Position numbers and translations under genes: made by a program
The notes under the pieces: generated by a model
Databases searched by the model: none
Told to the model about the DNA's origin: nothing
What the model saw: the letters and a program-made list of their open reading frames with translations, nothing else
Shown here: positions 5,128-60,550 of the stretch, in pieces
Position numbering within the stretch: the first letter of the stretch is position 1
Layout: each line of letters opens with the position of its first letter
Assembly (NCBI GenBank): GCA_002898555.1
Contig: BEHR01000018.1
Location: 1-64,000 of the forward strand
Length of the DNA stretch: 64,000 bases
Source of the DNA: a bacterium HR15
GTDB taxonomy: Bacteria > Armatimonadota > Fimbriimonadia > Fimbriimonadales > GBS-DC
Direction: 5' to 3'

Positions 5128-8100
5128 TTACTGTAAAGGATAGATTATTTTTCTCAAGTCGCTATCTGTAAACCCACTAAGTAAGCAGCTATCGAGCACA
5201 TCCACAACAAAATCATGACAATTGGCAAAGAGCATATCGTAGACATCCACCCACTCATATTGTAGATAATCTCCATAACTGCATATGCATCTCTTTTCAT
5301 GTTCTGTTACACTATATACTGCGCATTTGAGGTATGGATCATCCCTTAGATTGGATGTGGAACCAGGAGGTACCTCGAAAATCTTCCCGCACGCTGCAAT
5401 CAAGGAATGCGATACTATCCCACCCGTATCTTTTACAGGACGCGTACATATAAGTATAGAAGTTCGGGTATTCAGCCGACCACTACTTAGCATGTGATAG
5501 ACAGGCTGTGGTAAAAAGGGATCAAGAGGTGGAAAAGGCATCTGTGGCGGCGGATTCGGTAAAGCAGGAGGCATTGGCGTTTCCTCACATCTTCCTCCTT
5601 CACACCCCCCATATCCCAGCGGTGGGCACGCCATCGGGGCTTGGGGCTGCACCACGGGACAGACACACGGCGCAGGCAACTCGCTCTGCACCGCCAAACC
5701 GTTGCTGTCCATCGGATAGTACCCACTCGGCTCACCTGCAGCACCCATCATCAGCAACTCACCGCCTGTGTGCCGATACTGCCAGTTCTGATTGTACCCC
5801 AGCGCGTTCCCTGCAGGCAGGTAGTCCTCCACGCTTGACCAGCTCGTTCCCCCCATCGCCCGACTGTACACCCGCATCGGCACACCTCCACACCCTATCC
5901 GACACACATACCGATATTCCTGCTGACTGAGATAATCCCCCTTCCACACACGAATGCCATCGCCATTATACCCGTACACATACGCCACTTGCAAACTACC
6001 ATTCCCATAATCCCGCTCTATCCGCACCAAACGACCCTCCTCATCATACGAAAACACCCGATCATACGCCACCGACGGGGCATCCCAACGCGCCAAAGTG
6101 CCTTCAGGGTTCCATACAAAACTGTTCACCTCGCCCGTCCACACATCCTGCACCGACGACAACCGACCTGACACCTCGTCATAGGCATAAAAGTCCCAGT
6201 GCGTACCGTTCACCACATCGTCCCGCATCACAAACGCACGGCTCCCGTCGGGATTGTAAGCGTAGCTCCGCGAATACGCCACCTGACCTGTGCGCTGTTC
6301 GCTCTCCAGCCTCCCTGCGGGCGTGTAAGTGTAGACCGTCGTGTCCCCACTCGGACGCTCCACGCTCTGCACCACACGACCCAACAGGTCATAGGTATAC
6401 TCATACCCTATCAGCAAAGTGCCATCCGCTTTCCTGTGTTCCACTTTCCACACAAAGCCCACCTGCGACGGGTTGTCCGCACCATAGTAGGTATACTCTA
6501 CATAACTCCCGTTCGGATAGTCCTCGCGCTTCAGCCGTCCCGTCGCGTTGTCATAAGTATACACCACCGTGCCCCGATTGTCGCCCACACTCTGCAACCG
6601 TCCTAACTTGTCATAACCGTTCTCTATCGTGCGCACCACGCTGTTATCCGCTCGCAACTCTTTCTCAAAGCGTTTCCTGCCTGCCGGGTCATACTCAGCG
6701 GAGACGGCGACCACCTCGATGCCTTCCCCACTGCCACAGCAGCCGCGTTGCTCCCGCACGCGCCCCCAAGCGTCGTAGGTGTAGTCGCGCCTGCCTGCGC
6801 CATCCTCCACCCACACCCGACGGTTCTCACCATCCCAGCCCATACGCACATCCGCGCTGCGAGGATAATCAATCCCCCGCAAACGACCCCAAGTGTCATA
6901 ACTGTACAGCGTCGTCTCGCTGCTCGTCTCACCCGTCTGTACCACACGCCGAACCAGCCACCCGACGCCCCCATAGTCCATCTCGCGCCAATAACCACCA
7001 GGCACTATCACCTTCTTCAACTGACCACGACGCGCCAAGTTCGCCTCATCCGACCCGTAATACGCATACTCCGTCACCCGACCCAACGCATCCACCACCC
7101 GACGCACCTGACCATACGCCGGCTCGCCCAACTCATAATCATACACATACTGCGTCTGCGCACCCTCAGGGTCGGTGACACGCTTCACATCCCCATACGC
7201 CGTATAACTATACTCCCAAGTGTGGTTGAGCGCGTCCGTCACCTTCCACACCCGATCACTGTTCGGGTAATAGGTATAACTCGTCTGCGCCCCGTTCGGC
7301 TCCTTGCTCCAGAGCAGGTTGCCCTGTGTATCATAGTTCCATTCCCACACCAGCCCCGCAGCATCTTGACGCTTCACCACCTGATACTGCCCGTTGTACC
7401 ACAACCGCGTGGTCAAACGCACCAGCGTCGCGTCCCCACCCTGCGTCAGACGCACCACCGTCACGCCCGAAAAGCCATACTCTGTCCACACCCCTGTCGG
7501 GTCGGTCCAGCGACTGCTCCCAGTTTCGGGCGTGCCACTGCTCGTAATCCCCACAGGCTCCGCACGCCAATAACTCGCCGTCCACTGGTTGCCAGCCGCA
7601 TCACGAAACCACTTCAGCGCGTCGCTCGTCGCGCTCACATAGCCATACTGCCATTCCTGCCTTAGCCGATCCGTCCAGCGCACCACATTCCCCCGACCGT
7701 TGTAGCCAAACACCACCTCATAACCGCGCACCTGACCGTTCTCATCAGCCACCTCAGGAAAGCGCACCTTCCACAAACGCCCCTGACCATCGTACACCAG
7801 CTCCCATACACGCCCCGTGAAGTCCACTACCTGCCACAGCCGATTGTTCGTGTAAGTCAGGCTCAGCGCGCGTCCATACCGATCCGTAATCTGGCTCAAC
7901 TGCCCGTTCACATAGCTCAACACCACTGCCCGTGCGTACTTGTCCTCCACACGCTCCAGCACGCGCACCCCCTGCGCGTTGTTCTGGGAGGCGAACACCC
8001 AACGCTCTTCACTCCCACGCCGCGTCAACACATACCGCCCATCCGCCTGACGCACCAGACGGTCAAACACGCCTGTCGGCGGCGTGAAGACCCCATCCCC

Positions 8101-8640
8101 ATCGGGGTCATTATACACCCAACGCGAGCCATCCCCTTCTTGCACGGTCGCCTGCGTCTGCGGGCTATTGAGCGTGAGGCACACATGCCAACTGTGCGTC
8201 CACTTAGGGGCAATCGGAGACGGCTGGCTCGGATTGGCTTGCGAGTTGAACACGAGGCTCAACGAGACCCCGTTTGCCCACCCGACCAGCGGCAGCTGCA
8301 GGCAGAGATTGCCGTTGCCCAAATTCACCACGCCGCCATAGACGCCTGCGCTCGCGCCCCACGCAGGCGGCAGCCCAGGCGCAGGGGCAACGGGTGGGGT
8401 CTCCTGCGCACGCTGCAGGGGCAAGAGAGTTGCCAGCCAAGTTTTGAGGCGGGTCTTGAAGGGGATAGCAGGGGTGGAAGTGGCAATTAGAGTGTTGACA
8501 CTATTTACCCCCCCCGCAGAGAGCGAGTACGGGCAAGTTCCGCTGCCACCCCAAACTGCGGTGGCACCACCAACGACACGCACAGCACCGCGGCAAACGC
8601 CTTTGCCGTTCCCTTCTGCGCCAACACCTGGCGCACCCAA
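5128..8640 (-). CDS. Rhs/YD-repeat polymorphic toxin-like protein (full-length copy)
   Basis: A 1170-codon frame. From about residue 90 it has the VNLGNGNL and WTHSWHVCLTL segments typical of the N-terminal region before Rhs repeats, then more than fifteen YD-type repeats (YDAWGRV, YDLLGRVVQS, YTPAGRLESE, YNPDGSR), which in this superfamily build a hollow beta-cocoon. Residues about 884-1020 are the segment repeated in the orphan modules. The tip (about 1020-1170) has VSHSLI (His near 1078) and NCHDFVVDVLD (Cys near 1141); a His-before-Cys order with NC-x-x-F fits circularly permuted papain/NlpC-like cysteine peptidases, which is an inference. The first ~43 codons before the G run are an out-of-frame shadow; the true N-terminus is the signal peptide frame at 8505-8660. 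Confidence 0.85.
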   Translation of the reverse strand: MGAPGVGAEGNGKGVCRGAVRVVGGATAVWGGSGTCPYSLSAGGVNSVNTLIATSTPAIPFKTRLKTWLATLLPLQRAQETPPVAPAPGLPPAWGASAGVYGGVVNLGNGNLCLQLPLVGWANGVSLSLVFNSQANPSQPSPIAPKWTHSWHVCLTLNSPQTQATVQEGDGSRWVYNDPDGDGVFTPPTGVFDRLVRQADGRYVLTRRGSEERWVFASQNNAQGVRVLERVEDKYARAVVLSYVNGQLSQITDRYGRALSLTYTNNRLWQVVDFTGRVWELVYDGQGRLWKVRFPEVADENGQVRGYEVVFGYNGRGNVVRWTDRLRQEWQYGYVSATSDALKWFRDAAGNQWTASYWRAEPVGITSSGTPETGSSRWTDPTGVWTEYGFSGVTVVRLTQGGDATLVRLTTRLWYNGQYQVVKRQDAAGLVWEWNYDTQGNLLWSKEPNGAQTSYTYYPNSDRVWKVTDALNHTWEYSYTAYGDVKRVTDPEGAQTQYVYDYELGEPAYGQVRRVVDALGRVTEYAYYGSDEANLARRGQLKKVIVPGGYWREMDYGGVGWLVRRVVQTGETSSETTLYSYDTWGRLRGIDYPRSADVRMGWDGENRRVWVEDGAGRRDYTYDAWGRVREQRGCCGSGEGIEVVAVSAEYDPAGRKRFEKELRADNSVVRTIENGYDKLGRLQSVGDNRGTVVYTYDNATGRLKREDYPNGSYVEYTYYGADNPSQVGFVWKVEHRKADGTLLIGYEYTYDLLGRVVQSVERPSGDTTVYTYTPAGRLESEQRTGQVAYSRSYAYNPDGSRAFVMRDDVVNGTHWDFYAYDEVSGRLSSVQDVWTGEVNSFVWNPEGTLARWDAPSVAYDRVFSYDEEGRLVRIERDYGNGSLQVAYVYGYNGDGIRVWKGDYLSQQEYRYVCRIGCGGVPMRVYSRAMGGTSWSSVEDYLPAGNALGYNQNWQYRHTGGELLMMGAAGEPSGYYPMDSNGLAVQSELPAPCVCPVVQPQAPMACPPLGYGGCEGGRCEETPMPPALPNPPPQMPFPPLDPFLPQPVYHMLSSGRLNTRTSILICTRPVKDTGGIVSHSLIAACGKIFEVPPGSTSNLRDDPYLKCAVYSVTEHEKRCICSYGDYLQYEWVDVYDMLFANCHDFVVDVLDSCLLSGFTDSDLRKIIYPLQ
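5580..5987 (-). repeat. Rhs pre-tip repeat, copy D (in the full-length gene)
   Basis: Reference copy of the repeat, embedded in frame near the 3' end of the Rhs gene. It encodes YGYNGDG, GDYLSQQEYRYVC, SSVEDYLPAG, YPMDSNGLAVQSEL, CVCPVVQPQAPMACPPLG and the cysteine-rich border GGCEGGRCEE, after which each module has a different tip. Confidence 0.9.
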
Positions 8641-8699: not shown

Positions 8700-9114
8700 A
8701 TTGATGGCACATCCTGCAGGGGTTTGTCAAGGGGGGAACGAAAAAAGGCTTTTGAGTTCAAAAAGTGCCGTCAAGACCCTGAAGACGCTAAAAACCGTCC
8801 GCTGCCCGCGCATTTTTTTCAACTTTCCGAACAGCCCCACAGGGCAAGGACACCCTTGCCCACAGCCGCACCTGCTGCCGCCCCATCGCCCTTGAAAAGG
8901 CGCACAGACTTCAGCTCGGCACTGCGTGTGTCAGCGCCGTTGGCGCCACTCGCGCCTCAAAATGGGTGGGCAAGGCAGCGCGGTACCGCACACGCTGGTT
9001 CTTGCACCGTCTGCTTCTCACCTCCTTGCTGGTTGGGGTATTCGTCAAGCGGGTTGGGATTCCTGCTGTGGCGGGTGGCGAGTGGTGAGAGGTGAATCGG
9101 GTTTTTGGGCAGAC
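8700..9114. other. Gene-free stretch upstream of the Rhs and M16 genes
   Basis: No coding region is supported here. It holds a short hairpin GGGCAAGG/CCTTGCCC at about 8842-8861, and a degenerate GGCGGGTGGCGAGTGGTGAG stretch near 9070-9090 that resembles the one at 48600-48670. The Rhs promoter should lie near its left end, but no convincing -10/-35 pair was seen. Confidence 0.4.
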
Positions 9115-9262
9115 AAAATTTTCTTTTCCGGGGTACCCCAAAATTTTTTCTCTGGGGTACCCAAAATTTTCTTTTCCGGGGTACCCTGCTGGGTCGGAAA
9201 AGAAAATTTTGCCGTCTGGGTCAGAGAAAAAATTTTGCTGCTGGGTCGGAAAAGAAAATTTT
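9115..9262. repeat. Composite nested palindrome (A-B-A / A'-B'-A')
   Basis: Three direct units, AAAATTTTCTTTTCC+GGGGTACCC (9115-9138), AAAATTTTTTCTCT+GGGGTACCC (9140-9162) and a second A unit (9163-9186), are followed by three inverted units, GGGTCGGAAAAGAAAATTTT (9191-9210), GGGTCAGAGAAAAAATTTT (9218-9236) and again GGGTCGGAAAAGAAAATTTT (9243-9262). The whole folds as one stem of about 70 base pairs. Unit B matches the palindromes at 23470 and 24685. Confidence 0.85.
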
Positions 9263-9364
9263 GCACGCAGGTTTGCCCCTACACGCTGGGAGGTTTGCCC
9301 TTTAGGGGCATGCGCTTTTGTCTACGCATCCAGATCGCTCGACAACCTTTCGGAACGGAGTAAG

Positions 9365-9370
9365 GTATAC
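9365..9370 (+). promoter_or_regulatory. -10 box TATACT, leaderless type (M16 peptidase)
   Basis: AAGGTATACT ends nine bases before ATG 9380, so the transcript should begin at or next to the start codon. No ribosome site precedes the ATG. Confidence 0.6.
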
Positions 9371-9379
9371 TTTTCCGCT

Positions 9380-10648
9380 ATGACACTGGTTCACGCGACG
9401 CTTTCGAACGGCATTCGCATCGTGATGGAGCCTGTGCCGACAGTCCAGTCGGTTGCGATATGTGTCTGGGTCAAGAGCGGCTCCCGTTATGAGCAGCCTC
9501 ACCAATATGGAATGGCGCACTTCCTGGAGCATATGCTGTTCAAGGGCACCACGAATCGCACCGCTTTCCAGATTGCTCAGGAGATTGAAGGGCGTGGCGG
9601 TATTCTGAACGCCTCCACCGGCAAGGAGCTGACCTGCTACTATGCCCGCGTGCTGAGCGAACATCTGCCAATCGCGGTCGAAGTGCTGAGCGACCTGTTG
9701 CTGAACGCCAAGCTGGACCCCGATGAGCTGGAACGCGAGAAGGGCGTCATCATGGAAGAGATGCGCATGATTGAGGATACTCCCGACGAGGTGGTCCATG
9801 ACCTGTTTGCGGAGGTTCACTGGGCAGGTCATCCGTTGGGGCGGCGCATCATTGGCATGCCCGAAACGGTCCGCATGTTCACCCGCGAGGGGTTGCAAGA
9901 GTTTATTCATGCCCACTACTTGCCTGAACGCATCGTCATCTCGGCGGCGGGCAATCTGGAACCCGATACGCTGGTGCAGGAGGTGGAGCGATGGCTGGGC
10001 GCATGGCGTCCGAATCCGGAGGTCGCACCTGCGGATTCCACTCCCCCGCCCCGCAAGGCACATGACCGTCTCCAGATCCAGCTCTTTGCGCGTGAGGTGG
10101 AGCAGGTGCATTTCTGCATCGGCGTCGATGGTGTCTCGTTTATGGACGAGCGGCGATACGCGCTGGCAGTGCTGAACAGCCTGCTGGGCGGCAGCATGTT
10201 CAGCCGACTCTGGCAGGAGATTCGCGAGCAGCGCGGACTGGTGTATGACATCGGCAGCTACTCATCACCCATGTCGGATGGGGGGCTGTTTGTGATCTAT
10301 GGTGGAACTTCTGCGGAACATTTTGACCAAGTGGTGGAGCTGGTGCATGCGGAGCTGGATCGCCTCCGCTGCGAGCCGCCCAGCAAAGAGGAGACGCTCA
10401 GCGCACGCAATCAGCTCAAGGGAACGCGCGTGCTGGCATTAGAGGCGATGCAGACCCGTGCCGAACTTATCGGCAGCGAGACGCTCATGCGGGGTGAGGT
10501 GATTCCGATGGAGGAAGTCATCGCCCGAATCGACGCCGTCACACCCGAACAGATTCATGCACTTGCCGCCGAGCTGTTCGAACCCGATCGGCGTACAATC
10601 GTCGCTATCACCCCAGCCAACACCGCTTTGTCCGAACAAATCGGGTAA
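9380..10648 (+). CDS. M16-family zinc peptidase (processing peptidase-like)
   Basis: 422 residues. HFLEH at residues 47-51 is the inverted HxxEH zinc site of M16 peptidases, with the downstream acidic region EREKGVIMEEMRM supplying the third ligand; the C-terminal half has SRLWQEIREQRGLVYDI, the conserved R...Y segment of the second domain. The length fits the PqqL/mitochondrial processing peptidase-like subfamily. The frame is open upstream to 9092 but that part runs through the A/T-rich palindrome, and the protein family starts at MTLVHATLSNG; ATG 9380 lies nine bases after TATACT. Probably a cytoplasmic or periplasmic oligopeptidase. Followed by tatA, whose -10 box overlaps its stop codon. 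Confidence 0.93.
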   Translation: MTLVHATLSNGIRIVMEPVPTVQSVAICVWVKSGSRYEQPHQYGMAHFLEHMLFKGTTNRTAFQIAQEIEGRGGILNASTGKELTCYYARVLSEHLPIAVEVLSDLLLNAKLDPDELEREKGVIMEEMRMIEDTPDEVVHDLFAEVHWAGHPLGRRIIGMPETVRMFTREGLQEFIHAHYLPERIVISAAGNLEPDTLVQEVERWLGAWRPNPEVAPADSTPPPRKAHDRLQIQLFAREVEQVHFCIGVDGVSFMDERRYALAVLNSLLGGSMFSRLWQEIREQRGLVYDIGSYSSPMSDGGLFVIYGGTSAEHFDQVVELVHAELDRLRCEPPSKEETLSARNQLKGTRVLALEAMQTRAELIGSETLMRGEVIPMEEVIARIDAVTPEQIHALAAELFEPDRRTIVAITPANTALSEQIG

Positions 10649-13450: not shown

Positions 13451-14602
13451 TCAGCGTCGGGCGAGCAGTATGGACGCCAGCAACGCGAGCGACGCGCCCA
13501 TCAGGAAAGCCGCTTGAAACCCGAATGCTTGCCATATCAGCCCGAACAGCAGGCTGGCGGGCAGCATGCCGATGCCCACCACGAAATGGAACGCGCCAAA
13601 TGCCTGACCCCGCTGGTCGGGCGGAACCAGCTCGGCAACCAGTGCGCGCTCCGTGCCCTCCGTCAGCGCGAAATAGAGCGCGTACAACCCGAACAGCGCC
13701 CAGATGTGCCACGCCGCGCTGGCAAAACCGAACCCCGCGTAAACCAGCGCATAGACCAACCAGCCGAGAATCAACACTTGCGGGCGTCCCCAGCGGTCGG
13801 AAAGCAAACCACCCGGCGTGGAGAGCAGACTCTTGAGCAGGTGTTGCCCTGCCCACAGCAATGGCACAAAAGCCGTGCCAACTCCCACCTGCTGCGCACG
13901 CAACAGGAGAAACGCATCACTGGAGTTGCCTAAGGTGAAAACGAAGATACATAGCAAGAACCAGCGGAACTTGCCCCTGGGCAGGCTCAAACGCCTCGGT
14001 TCAGCTGTGTCCGTAGGCGATGGCTCCGACACCCTGCGCATGCCGTACACCAGCACGACCAGCGAGAGCAATGCAGGGACCGCCGCCAACCAAAACACAA
14101 GGCGATAATCCTTCGGGGCAAGTAGCAGGATGCCAGACGCTAATAGTGGACCTATCGCCGCCCCCAGATGGTCCATTCCCCGATGAAAGCCGAACGCCAG
14201 CCCACGCGCGTCAGGAAGGGTGGCATGCGCGATCAGCGCGTCGCGCGGTGCCGTGCGCAACCCCTTGCCCAGCCGATCGGCAAAGCGCAGACACAGCACC
14301 TGCCACGGCGCCGTCACCAGAGCCAGCAACGGGCGCGTCAACACCGCCAACCCGTACCCGAACATCGTCAGGAGCTTATGTCTGCCGAAACGGTCTGCCA
14401 ACCAGCCTGAAACAAGTTTCAGCAAGCTTGCGGTCATCTCGGCGATGCCCTCAATCAACCCGATGAACGCCACGGACGCGCCCAGTTGGGCCAGAAAGAG
14501 AGGCAGCAGCGGGTAAATCATCTCACTACTGGTATCGTTCAGCAGACTGACTGCCCCCAGCGCTATGACCGCTTTCGGCAAACGCGCTTGCTGTTGTGCC
14601 AT
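13451..14602 (-). CDS. Major facilitator superfamily transporter
   Basis: 383 residues starting MAQQQARLPKAVIALGAVSL at ATG 14602. About eleven or twelve hydrophobic segments; the loop 2-3 motif GWLADRFGRHK and its second-half counterpart GGLLSDRWGRPQ are MFS signatures, and SLLNDTSSEMIYPLLPLFL at the start is typical of a subgroup often labelled multidrug or hexuronate-type exporters. The open frame extends far upstream to 15148, but that lies inside glnD on the other strand. A TATTCT box nine bases before the ATG suggests a leaderless transcript, divergent from glnD. Substrate unknown. Confidence 0.88.
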   Translation of the reverse strand: MAQQQARLPKAVIALGAVSLLNDTSSEMIYPLLPLFLAQLGASVAFIGLIEGIAEMTASLLKLVSGWLADRFGRHKLLTMFGYGLAVLTRPLLALVTAPWQVLCLRFADRLGKGLRTAPRDALIAHATLPDARGLAFGFHRGMDHLGAAIGPLLASGILLLAPKDYRLVFWLAAVPALLSLVVLVYGMRRVSEPSPTDTAEPRRLSLPRGKFRWFLLCIFVFTLGNSSDAFLLLRAQQVGVGTAFVPLLWAGQHLLKSLLSTPGGLLSDRWGRPQVLILGWLVYALVYAGFGFASAAWHIWALFGLYALYFALTEGTERALVAELVPPDQRGQAFGAFHFVVGIGMLPASLLFGLIWQAFGFQAAFLMGASLALLASILLARR

Positions 14603-14611
14603 TTCTGCAGA

Positions 14612-14617
14612 AGAATA
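14612..14617 (-). promoter_or_regulatory. -10 box TATTCT, leaderless type (MFS gene)
   Basis: On the minus strand AGGTATTCT ends nine bases before ATG 14602. It is back to back with the glnD box at 14644-14649. Confidence 0.5.
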
Positions 14618-14643
14618 CCTAACCCAACAGGCAAAAGGACGGG

Positions 14644-14649
14644 TACAAT
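14644..14649 (+). promoter_or_regulatory. -10 box TACAAT, leaderless type (glnD)
   Basis: GGGTACAAT ends seven bases before GTG 14657, matching the spacing at tsaD and pth. Confidence 0.6.
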
Positions 14650-14656
14650 CTTCTTT

Positions 14657-17332
14657 GTGAGCCTCAGAGCGGCACAAGCAATTGGGCAGACGCCTGAACA
14701 GGTGGGTGCGTGGCTCGTTGCGGAGCGCGCGCGCCTGATAGAACACCTCTGGCGAGACAGCCTCGCCCTCTCCCACAGTGTGGGACGAAGTTTTTCCTCC
14801 GACCCAGATGGGCGCCCCGGAGGAAAAATTTCGGAGGGGCTGGGGGTGGGGACATTCGGCTCGGCAGACGCCTCGCCCTCCATAGACAAAGAGTTCGCTC
14901 GCCAGTATACCGCGCTGATCGACACGGCGTTGCAATGGCTGTACCAGTGGGCATATGAGCAAGCGGCGCAGGAGGTCGCGCTTATCCCGCAAGAGACCCT
15001 CGCGATTCTGGCGACGGGCGGCTATGGACGCGCTGACCTTGCCCCCTGCTCCGATATCGACCTCACCTTCGTGCCCCTGCACGAGAACGAGCCATTCACC
15101 GAACGGCTGGTCAAGCACCTGTTCCAAGCGTTGATGAATGGGCTGCATACACAGGCGCGGCTAAAGGTCGGCTACGCCTATCGCTTGATGGATGACTGCC
15201 CCACGCTCGATGCCAAAACGCGCACGGGACTGATCGATATGCGCCTGGTAGCAGGCAGTCGCGCCGTTGCCGAGCGGTTCGAAATGCGCTTTTGGCAGAC
15301 CTTAGACCCGACAGGTTTCATGTTAGAGCGGTATCAGGAGTATCGGGCACGCTGGGCAAAGCAGGGGGAGGGCATTTTGCGCATAGAGCCGAATCTGAAG
15401 GAGGGGCGCGGTGGGTTGCGCGACCGCCATACACTCAACTGGCTGAGCCAGGTGCGCTATGGCATTCCCGCACATGCCGTGCTGCCCACTCTCATTGCGG
15501 AGGGCATCCTAAGCCAGACGGAAGCGGACGCCCTGAATGAGGCAACCCAGACCCTGAGCCGAGTGCGCGCATGGCTGCACGCCCTCACAGGTGAAGCCCG
15601 CGATCGGCTCACGCTGACACGCCAAGCGGAAATTGCCGAGCGACTGGGTATCGAGCAAAGCGCGTTCACCCGCTGGGTGATGGACGCCCTCAGCACGCAC
15701 GCCCGCATCGCCCAGCGCGCCATCGAGCGGCTCATCCGCTCCAAACTCATTCTGGGGCTGGGACTGGATAGCGTTAATCTCCAGATTGAGCCTGCTCCCA
15801 CCTTAGAGCGTGAAAGCCCCGAATGGTGTCTGTGGGTGTTCCGACTGGCGCAAAAGTATCGGCTTGCGCTCAGCCCGCAGATCGAGGCGCGTATCGAGGC
15901 GACCATAGCAACCATCTCGCGCCCACCCGAACCGCGCGAGGCAGGGCATGCCTTGAAAGAGATCCTTAGCCAGCCGGGCGAGGTCTATCGGGTGCTGGAA
16001 CCAATGGCGCGGCTCGGCGTGCTGAGCTGGGCGATCCCTGCCTTCGGAGCCGTGATCCATCTGCCCGCGGGCGACCCGACCCACGAGTTCACCGTGGGTG
16101 AACATACGCTGCAAGCCATCCGCATTCTGGACAGTTTCGTGCAGTCCACATCGGACCCACCTGCCCTAACAACGATGCTCCTAAGCCAGTTGCCACGCCC
16201 TGAACTGCTTTACATGGCGCTTCTGCTGCACGATGTGGGCAAGCAAGACGGTTCGCGTCCGCATGCGGAGGTGGGCGCGGAGATAGCCCGCGAAACGGCC
16301 TATCAGCTCGGCTGGGACGAGTATGCCGACGACCTGGCATTTCTGGTGCGGCACCACCTGCTGATGGCGCAGACGGCTCGCCAGCGCGACCTGCACCTGC
16401 CCGAGACGATTCGCGAATTTGTGCGCACTGTGGAGGACCCCGAACGGCTGCAGATGCTCTACCTGCTCACCTGCGCCGATACGCAGGCGGTGGGCGAGCG
16501 GATCTGGACCCCGGCGCAGGCGGCATTCCTGCAGGAACTCTATCGGCGGGCGATGCGAGCGATGGAGGAGGGCGAGCCAGTGAGTGCGCCCAACCTGGGT
16601 GCACTCCGCAAACGCCTCATGCGCGAACTCTCGCGTCACCCGCTGCCCCACGAACTGATCGAGCAGCACATCCAACAGATGCCCTCCGCCTACCTGCTCA
16701 ACACCCCTGCCGAACAAATGATGCTCCACATCCACTACATTCAGCGCGTGCGCGAAGGCAAGGGGCCTGTGATCGAGTTCCATCAAGCCCCCGAATCGCC
16801 CTACACCGAATTGACTATCTGCACCTTTGATGACCCCCAACCGGGGCTGTTGAGCAAGATTGCGGGCGTGCTCTACGCGCTGGACGCGGAGGTCAGCGCA
16901 GCACGGGTGCTCACGCGCGAGGATGAGCCGCGCGTCGCGCTGGATACGCTCTGGATTACCATGCGCCATCGCCCGCTCTCACCTAATCAATGTACGGTGC
17001 TGGAGAAGGCACTGCGCCGCGTGCTGACGGGCGAGCAGTCGGTTAGCGAACTATTGCGCGAGCATCAGAAAGACCCCGACAGCCCACTAACGCTGCGCCA
17101 GCTCCAGATCCACGACGATGCCTCCGAGAGCTATACCGTGGTCGATATGCAGACAGCGCCGGATGCGGGCGCACTCTATCGCGCTGCGTATCGCCTCTCA
17201 CGACTGGGCTGGAACATCCATAGCGCGCGATTGGGGCAATGGGCAGGGCGCACCCTGTTGAGCTTCTACTGCACGGACACTCAAGGCAACAAAATACCCC
17301 CCGAACAGTACGCCTTGCTTCAAACCTTGTAG
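14657..17332 (+). CDS. glnD: Bifunctional [protein-PII] uridylyltransferase/removing enzyme
   Basis: 891 residues; controls nitrogen metabolism by adding UMP to, and removing it from, PII. Domains in order: nucleotidyltransferase with GGYGRADLAPCSDIDL (about 121-136), linker helices, HD domain LLLHDVGKQDG (about 523) and two C-terminal ACT domains (from about 714 and 825) that sense glutamine. GTG 14657 is chosen because TACAAT ends seven bases upstream; the open frame to 14486 lies in the divergent transporter. Residues about 32-76, between the N-terminal helix and the catalytic domain, are encoded by an A/T-armed palindrome (14787-14832) and a dispersed repeat (14855-14883), apparently inserted in frame. 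Confidence 0.92.
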   Translation: MSLRAAQAIGQTPEQVGAWLVAERARLIEHLWRDSLALSHSVGRSFSSDPDGRPGGKISEGLGVGTFGSADASPSIDKEFARQYTALIDTALQWLYQWAYEQAAQEVALIPQETLAILATGGYGRADLAPCSDIDLTFVPLHENEPFTERLVKHLFQALMNGLHTQARLKVGYAYRLMDDCPTLDAKTRTGLIDMRLVAGSRAVAERFEMRFWQTLDPTGFMLERYQEYRARWAKQGEGILRIEPNLKEGRGGLRDRHTLNWLSQVRYGIPAHAVLPTLIAEGILSQTEADALNEATQTLSRVRAWLHALTGEARDRLTLTRQAEIAERLGIEQSAFTRWVMDALSTHARIAQRAIERLIRSKLILGLGLDSVNLQIEPAPTLERESPEWCLWVFRLAQKYRLALSPQIEARIEATIATISRPPEPREAGHALKEILSQPGEVYRVLEPMARLGVLSWAIPAFGAVIHLPAGDPTHEFTVGEHTLQAIRILDSFVQSTSDPPALTTMLLSQLPRPELLYMALLLHDVGKQDGSRPHAEVGAEIARETAYQLGWDEYADDLAFLVRHHLLMAQTARQRDLHLPETIREFVRTVEDPERLQMLYLLTCADTQAVGERIWTPAQAAFLQELYRRAMRAMEEGEPVSAPNLGALRKRLMRELSRHPLPHELIEQHIQQMPSAYLLNTPAEQMMLHIHYIQRVREGKGPVIEFHQAPESPYTELTICTFDDPQPGLLSKIAGVLYALDAEVSAARVLTREDEPRVALDTLWITMRHRPLSPNQCTVLEKALRRVLTGEQSVSELLREHQKDPDSPLTLRQLQIHDDASESYTVVDMQTAPDAGALYRAAYRLSRLGWNIHSARLGQWAGRTLLSFYCTDTQGNKIPPEQYALLQTL
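14787..14832. repeat. Palindromic element inside glnD
   Basis: Arms GAAGTTTTTCCTCCG (14787-14801) and CGGAGGAAAAATTTC (14818-14832) around ACCCAGATGGGCGCCC. Same layout as the elements at 23470 and 24685 but with CCTCC in place of TCTCT. It is read in frame as RSFSSDPDGRPGGKIS. Confidence 0.8.
14855..14883. repeat. TTCGGCTCGGC-type dispersed repeat, copy 3 (in glnD)
   Basis: TTCGGCTCGGCAGACGCCTCGCCCTCCAT, coding for FGSADASPS in GlnD; matches the two intergenic copies at 11155 and 11195. Confidence 0.75.
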
Positions 17333-22346: not shown

Positions 22347-22355
22347 TCAGACGGC
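22331..22355. terminator. Shared hairpin containing both convergent stop codons
   Basis: GCCGTCTG (22331-22338) pairs perfectly with CAGACGGC (22348-22355). The nine-base loop and adjoining base hold TAA of the plus gene (22344-22346) and TGA of the minus gene (22347-22349). No U tract follows. Confidence 0.6.
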
Positions 22356-23426
22356 GGCAGGCACGCGCTCGCCTTGTGCCACCCGAATCAGCTCCTCCAA
22401 GCTGCTCTCCGCGACGGCAACGGCTCGATCCGCCACCCCGTAATAGACCATTATTCGCCCGTCGTGCATGGGCACAACGCCTGTCGGGAACACCACTCGC
22501 TCAAAGAAACCACTCACCTCATAATCCTCAGTGGGTGTAATGAATGGTTCGTGGGAGCGGTGCAACACGCGGTGTGGTTCCTCCAAATCCAGCAGGGCGA
22601 CCCCGGCGCAGTAGCCATCTTTTGCGTTGACACCGTGATAGACCAGGAGCCAGCCTTCGGGCGTCTCGATGGGGGGTGCTCCTGCCCCGATGCGTCGAGC
22701 GTCCCACATGTGCGCCCGCGGCGCCATCAGAAAGCGATGCTCGCCCCAGTGCAGCAGGTCTGGCGAGTACGCCAGCCACATGTTGGGTCCATTGAAGGGC
22801 GACATGCCCGTGCGATGCACCGCCACATATCGCCCCTTCACCTGGCGCGGGAAGAGCACCACATTCTTGTTCTCATGGTGCAGGATCAGCCCGTGCCGCT
22901 TGAAGGTGCGAAAGTCACGCGTACTTGCCAGCCCGGTGCAGATGCCGAACCGTGAGACCGAAGTGTAGGTGATGTAATAGGTGTCTTCAATCTGAGTGAT
23001 GCGGCTGTCTTCCAGCCCGTATTCCTCATAGATATTCTCCGGGAAAAGGGTCGGCTCCGGATCGATGGTGAAATGGACCCCGTCACGGCTGCGTGCCAAT
23101 CGCAGGTGCGAGATAGAGCTAAGGTAGGGTCGCCCCTCCACATAGACGGCACGCGGATCGCTCAGATCCACATGGGGCGAATGACGCGGGAAGGTAAGCA
23201 CCTCCACCCGCTTGGAATCGCGCCGATGGTTCAAGTTCAACACAGGCACGCCCACTTGATTGGGATCATCCAGAAACGGTCGCTCCGCCACCCGCAGCAG
23301 CAGAAGCACCTCATCCCCATAGCGGACAGCGCCCGGGTTGAACGCACCGACCACTTCCAGACCCGGCTCGGACGGCGGCACTGCCTCCGGCGTGATAATC
23401 GGATTTTCCGCCACGCGCTTTGCCAA
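22347..23426 (-). CDS. GH130-family beta-1,4-mannoside phosphorylase/glycosidase
   Basis: 359 residues, a five-bladed propeller glycosidase. Family segments seen: GAFNPGAVRYGDEVLLLLRVAE near the start, GLEDSRITQI (the conserved acidic residue region near 140), HRTGMSPF, GAGAPPIETPEGWLLVYHGV and YYGVADRAVAVAESSL at the end. GH130 enzymes phosphorolyse beta-mannosides such as mannosyl-glucose or mannobiose. The start is probably TTG 23426 (MAKRVAENPIITPE) behind GGGAGG; GTG 23414 is an alternative. It abuts the glycosyltransferase gene with no spacer, on the other strand. Confidence 0.85.
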   Translation of the reverse strand: MAKRVAENPIITPEAVPPSEPGLEVVGAFNPGAVRYGDEVLLLLRVAERPFLDDPNQVGVPVLNLNHRRDSKRVEVLTFPRHSPHVDLSDPRAVYVEGRPYLSSISHLRLARSRDGVHFTIDPEPTLFPENIYEEYGLEDSRITQIEDTYYITYTSVSRFGICTGLASTRDFRTFKRHGLILHHENKNVVLFPRQVKGRYVAVHRTGMSPFNGPNMWLAYSPDLLHWGEHRFLMAPRAHMWDARRIGAGAPPIETPEGWLLVYHGVNAKDGYCAGVALLDLEEPHRVLHRSHEPFITPTEDYEVSGFFERVVFPTGVVPMHDGRIMVYYGVADRAVAVAESSLEELIRVAQGERVPAAV

Positions 23427-23469: not shown

Positions 23470-23522
23470 TGAAATTTTTTCTCTGACCCCGCTGCGCGGA
23501 GTACCCCAGAGAAAAAATTTCA
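23470..23522. repeat. A/T-armed palindromic element, intergenic copy
   Basis: TGAAATTTTTTCTCTG (23470-23485) pairs base for base with CAGAGAAAAAATTTCA (23507-23522) around ACCCCGCTGCGCGGAGTACCC. Nearly identical to the copy at 24685-24736. It lies between the divergently arranged ends of holA and the GH130 promoter. Confidence 0.9.
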
Positions 23523-23555: not shown

Positions 23556-24662
23556 CTACACTTGGGTCGTTAGTTGCACGATGAGTCTTTCCATAACTTC
23601 GACTGGATTTACAGCGGATTGCACACCCTTTAGAGCGAGGTCGGCGTCGCAAAGGGCAGCAAATGCCCGCTGAAGTCGAGACAAAGGGAACCGCTCGGCT
23701 TGACGACGCAACCTTTCCCGCAAAAATGGCTGACGCTGCAGCAGCTGTATCACATTCGGCTCATGCAGCAATTTCTGTGCCACAGCCTCGCTTACCTGCT
23801 CCGGTCTATCGATGGGCTGATGGTGTTCGATCAAGATGCGCATGTCCCAAAGCAACCGAAACTGGCGACTGATCAGTCCCAGTGTTTGCAGTGCAGCGGT
23901 TTCGGGACGGTTGCCTCCCTGAAATAGTAACTGGAGCCAGCGCAACGCTTCCGCTGAATTGCCTGCAACAATCGCGTCGACCAGCTTGAATACCTGCGCC
24001 TGCTGCGACGCACTGACGACCCGTTCGATGTCCTCGCGTGTAATCTCGGTGCGTGGCTCTACATAGAGCAGCACTTTCTGCAGCTCCATCAGCGCCAGTT
24101 CTGCCACGCCGTCTACCAGCTCCATCAGGTACTGGGCTTCGGGCGGGCGTAGTCGCTTGCCTTGCACCTGAGCCGCTTCAATGAGACGTGCTTCCAGTGT
24201 CTTGCCACGCAGCGATTCCAGCGTGACGACCACGCCATGCTCGCGCACCGCATTGACCACCGCCTGCCAACCCGCTTTGGAGGGATGCGTCGTTGGGTTC
24301 TCCCCGTCTGACATGTCGGTCGCGTCGGGCAGGAGCACCAGACAACTAAAAGGCGGTATCTGAGGGATTAGCTGGGCAAGGGTGTTCAGTTCGGATGCAT
24401 GATAGCGAGAGGCTGCATGCAAAATCACCAGGCGTCGCTCACGCTCCATCGGCAAGGTTTGCAGAATATGTGCCACCGTAGCCACCGCTGTCTGGCGTGC
24501 ATCGAGCGTCGCCTCGTCGAGGCAGCCCGGCTCCAGCTGCAACGCGTGTCGTAGCCGATCGAGGAACTCACGCTGCAGCACCGGCTCGTTACCCACGAGC
24601 AAATAGGCGCGTGCCGGTGATTTCAACTGCTCTTCCGTAAGCTTGGAGTACTTAACTTCCAT
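23556..24662 (-). CDS. holA: DNA polymerase III subunit delta
   Basis: 368 residues. Clamp-loader wrench: N-terminal YLLVGNEPVLQREFLDRLR, ERRLVILHAAS, the middle GVAELALMELQKVLLYV and EDIERVVSASQQAQVFKLVDAIVAGNSAEALRWL segments, and the C-terminal helical domain with LISRQFRLLWDMR are typical HolA features. The start is ATG 24662 (MEVKYSKLTEEQ); the open frame continues to 24737 only because it passes through the palindromic element. It overlaps the end of the transglutaminase gene by 11 bases, so its translation may be coupled. Confidence 0.88.
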   Translation of the reverse strand: MEVKYSKLTEEQLKSPARAYLLVGNEPVLQREFLDRLRHALQLEPGCLDEATLDARQTAVATVAHILQTLPMERERRLVILHAASRYHASELNTLAQLIPQIPPFSCLVLLPDATDMSDGENPTTHPSKAGWQAVVNAVREHGVVVTLESLRGKTLEARLIEAAQVQGKRLRPPEAQYLMELVDGVAELALMELQKVLLYVEPRTEITREDIERVVSASQQAQVFKLVDAIVAGNSAEALRWLQLLFQGGNRPETAALQTLGLISRQFRLLWDMRILIEHHQPIDRPEQVSEAVAQKLLHEPNVIQLLQRQPFLRERLRRQAERFPLSRLQRAFAALCDADLALKGVQSAVNPVEVMERLIVQLTTQV

Positions 24663-26892
24663 GTCTTTGCGAGACAGACAGTCCTGAAATTTTTCTCTGA
24701 CCCCGCTGCGCGGAGTACCCCAGAGAAAAAATTTCATCGGATGCGTCTGACCAAGCGGACCAGTCGCGCCATTTGAGTATCATGGCTCGCCCTATCAGGC
24801 GCGGGTATCCGACTTCCCGACCCATCCATTGGCGTAGTGCATTTATTTTACCCTGCACGGACTCCTTCGCCGCATTTGCCTCTGGCGCGGGCGCGTAAAG
24901 CAAGCGCAAGATAGGCTCCTGCAAGGCTTCGACCAGCGATGCGGCGGAGGGAGTGCGCTCGCGTGCCCTGAGAATCGCGGCACAGCGCTTTAGATAATCC
25001 GCAGGAGATTGATAAGGAGCGGGCGCAGGACATCCCAGCAAGCGCAACATGAACACCAACCGCGCATAGAGTCGTCCCCCACGGGAGAGCATACCTTGGG
25101 GCGTCGTGAATCGCTTCGCCAGCACGAGCGACCAGAGCAGATACAACACACCTGCGATAATGAGTCCGTCCAACAGGCGTCGCCAATGCAGCAGCGGGTG
25201 CAGGTGGGACGGGTCGGAACCACTGTTGCCGCCAATAAGCGTGCCCGCGTTAATCACGGGGGCGTTCTGCGTGGCGTCGAAAGGAACCCAGCCCAGACCG
25301 CTGAAGTAGACTTCTGTCCATGTGTGCCGATGCTTCTCGCGCACGATATACTCGCCCGTTTGCGGATCGCGCTCGGTTAGCAAGAAGCCCGAGGCCACCC
25401 GGGCGGACAACCCAGCATACTGGCACATCACGGCAAGCGCGGTCGCGAATTCGGTACAGTAGCCCTCTCGCGCCACGAAGAGGAAATACTCCACTGCGTC
25501 CTCGTCAGGAGGGTACGCCTCGGTCTCGATGTTGTATGCCGTATGGGTCTCGATATAGTGTTTGAGCGCAAGCACTTTATCATAATCGGTCGGCTGGTCA
25601 CTGGTGAGGCGTCGCACGAGTTCGAACACGCGCGCGTTGCGTGCCGACTCGCTCCATGCACTCCAAAAGGGGGTGATGGCGTCGCGTCCACGCAGGATGG
25701 CGGGATCTTCCGGGGGCACCAGGGCGCGGATTTCGTATCGGCTGCCCGGCGAGAGCGGTCGGCGCACCCAGAGGGTGCCCGTATGCAGGGCGAACCCGAC
25801 CGCACGCCGTGGCTCGGAAGGCTTCAGCCAGACAGGCAGGCCCGGCGTGTAAAACTGCTGATGTACACCCCCCATCGTTGTGATTTCGGCATACACCTCG
25901 CGCTGGTGCATATATTCGGGTGGTTGCGGCATCACAAACTCACCCCTGGCATTTGGCTCGACCAGCATGAACCCCATGCGAGTGCGGTTCCAGCCGCGTC
26001 CGGTGTAAAGGTCATAGGCGTCCATGCGCAGATAGCGTGCATCGCCCCGCAAGAACCGAACGCGCAGCACCTCCATATCGCTCGGAACGACAGGACCCGC
26101 GCCCACCTGCAGCGCAGGTAAGGCAGGCACATTGGAACGCGCCGCACTGGGCCGAAACGGCAGCCCAATCACCAGCCCGGATATCAACTCGCCCAAGATA
26201 AGCCAGAATAAAAATGCCACCACACTGGCTGCCATAGACGCAGCAATCCCCACAACGAGCACATAGCGCCCAATTATCGCCAAAGGCAGCCGCACCTCCC
26301 ACTCGACCTGGCGTGCCGCGATCAGCATCACAATGAGCACCATCACAAACGCCAGAAACAGGTAGGGCACCGCGGGCGCAAACAGATAGGAGCCAATCAG
26401 CCCAAACATCGCCATCACCGGCACCCCTTGAAACAGCACAGAGGCGGGGGAAACCATCAACGGTGTGCGCAAGGTGAAGTACCATAGAAGCGAGGTGCTC
26501 AAATAAATCTCTATGGAGGGATCGGTCGGCATATTGACCAGCGCATTAAAGGTGGGCTGTGCCGTAATGGCAAACAGGGCGAGCGTCGCATCCAGAAAGC
26601 CGAAGATCAGTCGCGTGTTCTCGCTCAGCGGGCGTTGACTCAGCCACGCGCTGGTCAGCGTGCCTAAGGTGATGAGTACAATAAAGACCACAGGCATGCC
26701 CAGCTCCAACCGGGCTGCACGAAACGCCAGCAAGCCAATCAGGCTCACCAACCATGCTGCCCCGTACAGCACAAGACCACCCTGAAGGGCAAGCCCCCCA
26801 CCGAACCGAGATCCCGACCAGGGCATGATGCCCTCGGATTGACCGCAGCTTGCCTCCACTGCACGGGCTACCCACCGCTCTCTATTCGCCAT
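24652..26892 (-). CDS. Transglutaminase-like membrane protein (TgpA-like)
   Basis: 746 residues. Six to seven membrane segments in the first 240 residues, an extracytoplasmic transglutaminase-like domain with Cys (GYCTEFATAL, about 479), His (RHTWTEVYF, about 523) and Asp (VPFDATQN, about 541), another membrane helix near 590 and a cytoplasmic tail resembling DUF4129. This is the layout of bacterial TgpA-type proteins, often with cell-envelope roles. The last 25 or so residues (DEIFSLGYSAQRGQRKISG...) come from the palindromic element at 24685-24736, so the original C-terminus was probably replaced. TACAAT lies 18 bases before ATG 26892. Confidence 0.85.
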   Translation of the reverse strand: MANRERWVARAVEASCGQSEGIMPWSGSRFGGGLALQGGLVLYGAAWLVSLIGLLAFRAARLELGMPVVFIVLITLGTLTSAWLSQRPLSENTRLIFGFLDATLALFAITAQPTFNALVNMPTDPSIEIYLSTSLLWYFTLRTPLMVSPASVLFQGVPVMAMFGLIGSYLFAPAVPYLFLAFVMVLIVMLIAARQVEWEVRLPLAIIGRYVLVVGIAASMAASVVAFLFWLILGELISGLVIGLPFRPSAARSNVPALPALQVGAGPVVPSDMEVLRVRFLRGDARYLRMDAYDLYTGRGWNRTRMGFMLVEPNARGEFVMPQPPEYMHQREVYAEITTMGGVHQQFYTPGLPVWLKPSEPRRAVGFALHTGTLWVRRPLSPGSRYEIRALVPPEDPAILRGRDAITPFWSAWSESARNARVFELVRRLTSDQPTDYDKVLALKHYIETHTAYNIETEAYPPDEDAVEYFLFVAREGYCTEFATALAVMCQYAGLSARVASGFLLTERDPQTGEYIVREKHRHTWTEVYFSGLGWVPFDATQNAPVINAGTLIGGNSGSDPSHLHPLLHWRRLLDGLIIAGVLYLLWSLVLAKRFTTPQGMLSRGGRLYARLVFMLRLLGCPAPAPYQSPADYLKRCAAILRARERTPSAASLVEALQEPILRLLYAPAPEANAAKESVQGKINALRQWMGREVGYPRLIGRAMILKWRDWSAWSDASDEIFSLGYSAQRGQRKISGLSVSQRHGS
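24685..24736. repeat. A/T-armed palindromic element at the end of the transglutaminase gene
   Basis: TGAAATTTTTCTCTG (24685-24699) and CAGAGAAAAAATTTCA (24721-24736), with the same centre as the copy at 23470. The holA and transglutaminase frames are both open through it, and it supplies the C-terminal codons of the latter. Confidence 0.9.
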
Positions 26893-60112: not shown

Positions 60113-60550
60113 TCAGAGTGGTATCCAGCCGTTGCGCTTGAGCCAACGCAAAGCTGCCGCTGCATAGCGGCGCGAACTGCATGTAAAATCACGCACTTTC
60201 GCGACCGTGATAGGCGCGGGCAGGTGGCGTAGCTGCTCCGCCAGGTGTTGTAGCGTTTCGATGGGGAAGTAAATTCCCTCGCCCGCGTCCGCAAACTCGC
60301 CTCGCTCGATACCGACCCGAATCATCGCACGGATGGCATCGGGTGGCGCACCCAGTTGGCGCGAGGCATCCCGAAGAGAGGGCACAGTAATGCCTGCCTC
60401 GCGATAGAGCGCACGCACCCGCTGATAGAACGCCTCCTGCCTCGGCTTCAACACAATTTTTCCCTCCGGAGGACCCGTCGGGGTCGGAGGAAGGGAATGT
60501 TGCAGGACAGATTGCTCGGCTTTCCGCTTCATCCCCGAATCGCTGTTCAC
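60113..60550 (-). CDS. Stand-alone SelB C-terminal-like winged-helix protein
   Basis: 145 residues. [21 protein letters not shown] and [33 protein letters not shown] resemble the last winged helices of the selenocysteine elongation factor SelB, which bind the SECIS hairpin, but no GTPase domain, selA or selD is present. GTG 60550 lies six bases after TATAAT (60557-60562) and is the leaderless candidate; ATG 60532 (MKRKAEQ) is the alternative. Residues about 17-34 ([14 protein letters not shown]) are encoded by a palindromic element. Possibly a nucleic-acid-binding regulator; the role is unknown. Confidence 0.6.
60449..60502. repeat. Palindromic element inside the SelB-like gene
   Basis: CAACACAATTTTTCCCTCCG (from 60449) and CGGAGGAAGGGAATGTTG (60485-60502) form imperfect arms around GAGGACCCGTCGGGGT. 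Same class of A/T-armed element as in glnD but more diverged. Confidence 0.55.

Follow-up and report, generated by a model that had tools for sequence, protein, structure and literature searches.

How does a palindrome come to be built of three palindromes, one inside the other? The question arises from a locus in the window, the whole 64,000-nucleotide stretch analysed here (GC content 58.8%), where 150 nt are taken up by arms of two types, A and B, in the order A-B-A-loop-A'-B'-A'. All three arm pairs are 100% complementary. The initial annotation had reported a near-perfect long stem of three direct and three inverted units covering 148 bases (9115-9262), and its description as a nested palindrome holds, with a real span that is one base longer at each end. 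The parts of the nest and its neighbours are as follows.

9114-9263, no strand: nested palindrome A-B-A / A'-B'-A' with three complete levels (exactly complementary arms, RNA fold)
9114-9130, +: left arm A of the outer unit (arm parse, as for the other five arms)
9139-9154, +: left arm B of the middle unit
9162-9178, +: second left arm A, belonging to the innermost unit
9195-9211, -: right arm A' of the innermost unit
9162-9211, +: innermost complete A unit, comprising arm, loop and arm (78.4 bits with covariance model R1)
9222-9237, -: right arm B' of the middle unit
9247-9263, -: right arm A' of the outer unit
9107-9278, no strand: outer palindromic shell GGGCAGA ... CACGCAGGTTTGCCCC, with an A unit inserted in its loop (RNA fold, empty copies elsewhere in the genome)
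5128-8640, -: Rhs-repeat ORF, whose start is about 470 bp from the nest, the nest lying upstream
likely ATG at 9380, +: M16 peptidase ORF, with the nest about 115 bp upstream of the ATG

Folding as RNA had been proposed as a check, and positions 9100-9280 reach -79.1 kcal/mol (z = -5.78), a value matched by 0 of 200 dinucleotide shuffles. The fold additionally pairs an outer shell, GGGCAGAC with GGTTTGCCC, and the nest itself sits in the loop of this fourth palindrome. The region is intergenic and divergent, flanked by the Rhs-repeat ORF on one side and the M16 peptidase ORF on the other, and the earlier description of the nest as amplified stepwise upstream of the Rhs gene probably records an incidental neighbour. 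A frame beginning at GTG 9092 stays open across the nest into the M16 peptidase ORF and, judged by this open frame, the peptidase may carry an N-terminal extension that runs through the nest.

Units of the same kind recur throughout the genome (3.04 Mb in 72 contigs, 98.3% complete). A genome-wide count, which had been suggested for this locus, gave 99 matches to TTTTTCTCTGACCCC with at most one mismatch, against 0 for the reversed control pattern, and 159 matches to AAAATTTTCTTTTCCG with at most two mismatches, against 1 for its reversed control. From 199 listed places (the 99, plus 100 of the second pattern's 159 matches) we obtained at least 109 clusters, among the matches listed, in 108 fetched stretches, one of which holds two clusters. 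Most units are hairpins of 48-53 nt with arms of 16-17 bp and a loop like GGGTACCC..CTGGGT, and their arms fall into four types.

Arm type A: CAAAATTTTCTTTTCCG
Arm type a: CAAAATTTTCTTCTCCG
Arm type B: CAAAATTTTTTCTCTG
Arm type b: TGAAATTTTTTCTCTG

The typical loop of A, a and B units is GGGTACCC followed by (GT or TG)CTGGGT, and the usual b-unit loop has 21 nt in the form GGGTACTC..GGGGT or ..TGGGT. Units end in CAAAATTTT/TGAAATTT and their complements. The outermost two to three arm bases vary among copies (CAA, CAG, CGA or TGA; L069, L095, L114, L120, L164) and are mostly complementary inside any one copy, as if the arms had been copied from each other.

Covariance model R1, built from 26 hairpins, matched the source genome 148 times, with the first 150 candidates scored and many hairpins counted on both strands; it matched none of 17 genomes of the same family (first 150 candidates scored in each). 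Likewise, the 16-mer pattern GTACCCCAGAGAAAAA with one mismatch was found in 0 of 60 other relatives' genomes. Broader contig scans returned one 20-mer match in a Parachlamydiales contig and nine 16-mer matches in viral contigs, all of them single matches that we took for chance. The family has so far been seen only in the source genome. Three further units lie in the window outside genes or close to gene starts.

23470-23522, -: lone b-type unit within the gap that lies upstream of a GH130 ORF (22347-23426, -)
24685-24736, -: lone b-type unit a short way upstream of the ORF for DNA polymerase III delta, whose predicted start is 24662 (-)
60454-60502, +: diverged unit scoring 27.3 bits, either near the 5' end of an ORF or upstream of it

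Unit B of the nest had been equated with the arms at 23470 and 24685. They share their inner part and differ at the outer end, the left arm being TGAAATTTTTTCTCTG at 23470 and TGAAATTTTTCTCTG, one T shorter, at 24685, compared with CAAAATTTTTTCTCTG for B. The unit at 24685 is also in frame, as residues 719-736 of a 746-residue transglutaminase-like ORF (24652-26892, -). The two b units enclose the DNA polymerase III delta ORF, this being the only neighbouring-unit pair whose enclosed genes were checked.

That palindromes have been inserted into palindromes, as had been proposed from the locus alone, is well supported across the family. Automatic parsing of the 108 stretches gave 104 outermost paired hairpins, comprising 73 single, 29 double, one triple and one quadruple, with some one-armed or decayed clusters mis-paired and kept in these counts, and with decayed nests whose outer arms are mismatched (e.g. 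L070) undercounted. Among these 104, the sole triple is the nest at 9114-9263 and the sole quadruple is b-a-A-B (L131). In 34 nested pairs the inner unit follows GGGTAC(C/T)C of the outer loop, a homologous site that varies by no more than about 3 bp. Outer and inner types combine in at least six ways (B-in-A, a-in-b, A-in-b, A-in-B, A-in-a and B-in-a), and inner units are found in both orientations relative to the outer. Nested B units share the orientation of the outer unit in 15 of 16 cases, which makes many nests copies of a small number of events; the orientation of a-in-b is mixed. Exact empty counterparts are present: the uninserted b loop GGGTACTCAGCGCAGCTGGGT (L137) can be set against the filled form GGGTACTC, a unit, AGCGCAGCTGGGT (L108, L145), and plain uninserted A and B loops exist as well. 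By rough arithmetic the loops account for some 0.1% of the genome, and 34 nested pairs lie far above what random insertion would give, an excess that holds even if many nests copy few events.

Inner units are younger than outer ones, as seen from their better-matched arms: the mean edit distance is 0.29 for inner arms (n = 34) and 0.87 for outer arms (n = 31; Mann-Whitney p = 0.012), and pair by pair the inner match is better in 13, worse in 4 and tied in 17 (sign test p = 0.049), both tests being post hoc and on few events. One-armed forms such as A>B>A< and A>B<A< also occur, and suggest later deletions between short direct repeats. A general preference of outermost insertions for hairpins was considered and dropped, as palindromes are not significantly over-represented at those sites (p = 0.14 for 41 b-class sites, p = 0.19 for 49 sites).

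Stepwise amplification, the other process initially suggested, is real as well, and followed nesting: whole composites recur within longer repeats, and b units stand in tandem with a recurrent joint. Tandem b units are mostly joined at AAATTTCAGG/AAAAATTT; the exceptions are one joint that differs by one base (L082) and one that is head to head (L142). The shell around the nest also exists empty, as GGGCAGA directly followed by CACGGAGGTCTGCC, and the uninserted shell GGGCAGACACGGAGGTCTGCC is itself palindromic. A second palindrome family, GGGCAGACACAGGGGTCTGCCCCTAC, repeats in tandem with a period of 33 bp and serves A units as a landing site; copies were noted at two loci.

L018, 136-255 in reverse-complement coordinates, -: copies of the second palindrome family
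L149, 724-975: copies of the second palindrome family

Beyond what had been noted at the locus, the larger finding is that these self-nesting units also sit in frame inside genes. Predicted ORFs contain 16 of 112 parsed element rows, most at ORF ends or in leaders and several internal. Sorting by eye, we kept five of the 16 as internal inserts (in ArgC, an amidase, a DinG-like, a GNAT-like and a 3-keto-disaccharide hydrolase ORF) and set aside 11 as ORF ends, probable leaders, repeat-shell frames or lone arms (L074, L077, L092, L094, L111, L113, L139, L147, L149, L150, L153). Inspection of 14 more model hits, 13 of them fetched and one the window's unit at 60454, added five (L358, L359, L360, L364, L366), and the eleventh, in a GlnD-like ORF of the window, came from scoring the window with R1. 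Coding inserts total 11 genes, with homolog evidence for five.

L159, ArgC: 26 extra residues (columns), gapped in 16 of 16 relatives' homologs
L164, amidase: 15 columns, gapped in 15 of 15 homologs, which are related amidases of about 40-60% identity
L099, DinG-like helicase: 16 columns, gapped in 15 of 15 homologs
L070, 3-keto-disaccharide hydrolase: 51 residues that stem from a decayed nest of several levels, gapped in 15 of 15 homologs
L360, AIF-like oxidoreductase: 14 of 17 insert residues opposite a gap (two solved chains shown)
L358, CHAT/TPR protein: insert within the matched Pfam domain
L359, AAA_21 protein: insert within the matched Pfam domain
L069, GNAT-like protein: insert outside the matched domain (open frame and coding score)
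L364, P-type ATPase: insert outside the matched domain (open frame and coding score)
L366, MctB-like protein: insert outside the matched domain (open frame and coding score)
14785-14834, -: unit in a GlnD-like ORF (14486-17332, +), near residues 101-116 (open frame and coding score)

For the first four genes the insert is absent over its full length in 61 of 61 relatives' homologs. The best solved relative of ArgC aligns as two stretches that flank the insert, a clean split seen only for this match; some other solved-structure alignments run partly into the insert. Solved structures do not span it in the DinG-like helicase, the ATPase or the AAA protein. The unit in the GlnD-like ORF lies upstream of the matched GlnD domain, its first base uncertain by one.

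The coding copies share several properties. Nine of the 11 have a common codon phase (p = 0.004), and seven of the 11 have an identical base on both flanks, both comparisons having been chosen after the data were seen and the codon-phase test drawing on few events; the other four, among them the 3-keto-disaccharide hydrolase insert with its undefined end, show no matching flank bases. Matching flanks are consistent with a 1-bp duplication, by which a 50-nt unit adds 51 nt, or 17 codons. Across the family the length of the duplication varies, being 0 bp at one shell (shell 1) and in a-in-b nests, 1 bp elsewhere and apparently 2 bp in a few cases. The A and a consensus sequences are open in all six frames, compared with 0.9% of shuffled A palindromes, and 36% of 50 real A/B-type elements are fully open, compared with 3% of 97 left and 6% of 97 right flanks (the flanks being those of all 100 elements). 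Openness in six frames is confined to the A/a consensus; B is open in five of six frames, b in three of six and the nest at 9114-9263 in five of six. No b-type element is fully open (0/32), partly because of TGA/TCA at the tips, and none of the 11 coding inserts is a b-type copy.

We consider the best explanation, with a probability of about 0.77, to be that these are short non-autonomous insertion palindromes which nest in their own loops and enter genes. Copies would insert with a target duplication of 0-1 bp into intergenic DNA, the loops of older copies, the loops of the second family and coding sequence. Each new unit would integrate into the loop of an existing one, after GGGTAC(C/T)C, and so give rise to nests, and nested composites would then spread as units within larger repeats. 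Deletions between short direct repeats (CAAAATTTT, GGGTACC, CTGGGT) would produce the one-armed forms. In genes, copies would survive where the insert as a whole has a length divisible by three and contains no stop, and A/a units would be suited to this, with 50 nt plus 1 bp making 17 codons and six frames open. The family, its nesting, the exact empty loops and the in-frame inserts absent from relatives' homologs are observed directly; we infer that deletions gave the one-armed forms and that tolerance in genes has been selected for. The units would be moved by a recombinase or transposase, since lost or not recognised, that favours these loops. We would give somewhat less than even odds to a more ambitious version, in which a coding palindrome outside Rickettsia has become adapted to be neutral to the reading frame (50 nt plus 1 bp, no stop in any of the six frames, a preferred codon phase), holds in its loop the integration site for further copies, can nest without limit and is served by an undescribed enzyme that recognises loops and leaves a 0-1 bp duplication.

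The main competitor dispenses with a transposase and has units spread and nest through break repair or template switching at hairpins, with ectopic copies as templates. Neither of the two transposase families tested (PF01797, PF01548) yielded a partner, the GGGTACC/CTGGGT microhomology is common to the loops, derivatives with one arm are frequent, as are tandem copies that share a recurrent joint, and arms change yet remain complementary; break repair has also been argued for the spread of green algal plastid palindromes, in the portion of that work considered here (PMC7043297). Inserts, however, end at the arm tips and not within the shared loop motifs, and the inserts in genes are cleanly bounded by unique sequence, 7 of 11 having one and the same base on either flank, a pattern that microhomology repair does not predict, and we regard this account as unlikely. 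Less probable again is a role as functional RNA or as regulatory elements (intercistronic hairpins, leaders or terminators), for which selection would have kept the units, with nesting as a by-product. It would fit the placement of b-type rows, 29 of 55 of which separate codirectional genes, often where the gap is short, and the eight of 55 whose terminal TGA serves a neighbouring predicted gene as its stop codon.

L125, 971-1032: b unit whose terminal TGA is the stop of an adjacent predicted gene
L071, L100, L105, L110, L123, L145, L158: the same arrangement

At the first of these loci, one b unit ends both convergent neighbours. The orientation of b units leans towards one sense relative to transcription, a lock that looked strong by eye and that came to only 20 versus 8 oriented rows (uncorrected p = 0.036), a modest bias on which we did not build. 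Against an RNA role, A/B units occupy long intergenic regions, repeats and genes, with 15 of 57 rows in divergent intergenic positions; seven weak Rfam matches in positions 8700-9700 of the window all fall under their gathering scores; and the 17 genomes of the same family scored with R1 hold no match. In the 26 hairpins, 97.4% of cells pair and both partners vary at 8 of 17 pairs, with U-G in 5 of 430 cells. Because the two sides change together almost without the expected G-U intermediates, the arms appear to be kept complementary as DNA and not as a selected RNA stem.

Mobilisation of REP elements by a RAYT (Y1 transposase), the partner first suggested for this locus, would account for high copy number, extragenic preference and palindromic form, and the genome does contain a single PF01797 gene.

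L170, 5193-5948 (contig C10), -: Y1_Tnp-family gene with a Sigma70_r4 domain, the sole PF01797 match

This protein has KPNQVNLL at what we take to be the place of the HUH histidines, and no unit arm with three or fewer substitutions lies in the 12 kb around its gene; from its sequence it looks like a domesticated transposase, perhaps a regulator. The units moreover end in CA/TG, with no GTAG or CGTC foot and no conserved tag in the listed flanks, so that this proposal is largely refuted and retains very little probability. An IS110-type partner was likewise discarded, the PF01548 profile having 0 matches in the genome. If the units were MITEs of an IS with terminal inverted repeats, an autonomous element sharing their ends would be expected; the two profiles searched across the genome, PF01797 and PF01548, yielded none. 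A duplication of 0-1 bp argues against typical DDE transposition. There remains the view, raised in the initial annotation for a nest without further copies, that the locus is a local accident or an assembly artefact. Contigs C14, C32, C34, C39 and C67 do end inside unit arrays or nests, and array lengths are probably underestimated, as the assembly breaks inside arrays at these five contig ends; but the nest is no such accident, because units recur genome-wide (the 99 and 159 matches above), and the clusters, at least 109, have flanks that differ from one another and include conserved genes whose frames are intact. We regard this view as refuted.

Insertion palindromes that nest and enter genes can be compared with several described systems. 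Rickettsia palindromic elements (RPE) are palindromic repeats found in frame in protein-coding genes of unrelated function, where they are translated as an additional peptide in proteins that are said to remain active, according to passages in a review (PMC10969869) and in a paper on nematomorph mitochondria (PMC6649704). The present family resembles them as a many-copy palindrome with in-frame inserts in conserved genes that are absent from homologs, and differs in that its units are about 50 nt and not about 150 nt, nest in each other's loops and, among the copies found, are mostly extragenic; the likeness is one of form and placement, and we do not file the family as RPE. Rickettsia genomes are AT-rich, unlike the window with its 58.8% GC. 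RPE were reportedly described by Ogata in 2000 and 2002, the latter of which is said to present coding palindromes in its title as a unique but recurrent feature of Rickettsia.

Self-nesting has its closest counterpart in the organelles of Volvox carteri, where, in the sections consulted, palindromes of about 50 nt are described as often inserted in one another, with composites at several places, loops usually of 3-5 nt and mtDNA copies that are intergenic or intronic except for one rRNA module (PMC2670323). Copies within copies and the spread of composites are shared with Volvox; a bacterial host, a loop of 16-21 nt with one insertion point and coding insertions are not. REP elements or dimers inside other palindromes are reported, in an excerpt, from A. 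variabilis, T. roseum and H. neapolitanus (PMC3733652). Our units are like REP and other GTAG-/CGTC-tagged palindromes in their high copy number in bacterial chromosomes, and unlike them in having no such tag, arms of 16-17 bp, no RAYT partner found and insertion into the loop of their own family. Palindromes are also targets of insertion sequences: ISPsy8 inserts at the symmetry axis of REP hairpins and ISPa11 enters REPs without the usual direct repeats, as given in part of one report (PMC1525189). Those are full IS with transposase genes, whereas here target and insert are both a small palindrome and no IS110 gene was found.

In the literature covered, a scope that leaves most subscription papers outside, we recognised no bacterial self-nesting or coding palindromes outside Rickettsia, and the combination of in-frame coding palindromes with self-nesting would, on this comparison, be new as a variant and not as a kind. 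To our knowledge, how such small palindromes move is not known. The family links three phenomena that have been described separately, namely RPE, self-nesting organelle palindromes and the targeting of palindromes by IS. One genome holds filled and empty loops, a readable insertion order and filled genes to be set against relatives' empty homologs and, because filled and empty states occur together, one can test directly which targets are chosen, how long the duplication is, in what order insertions arose and how well proteins tolerate such inserts.

The genome also contains four CRISPR-like arrays with a repeat of about 30 bp and a period of about 66 bp, on contigs C7, C12, C15 and C16 (around L107), and the nest at L107 lies close to copies of this CRISPR-like repeat.
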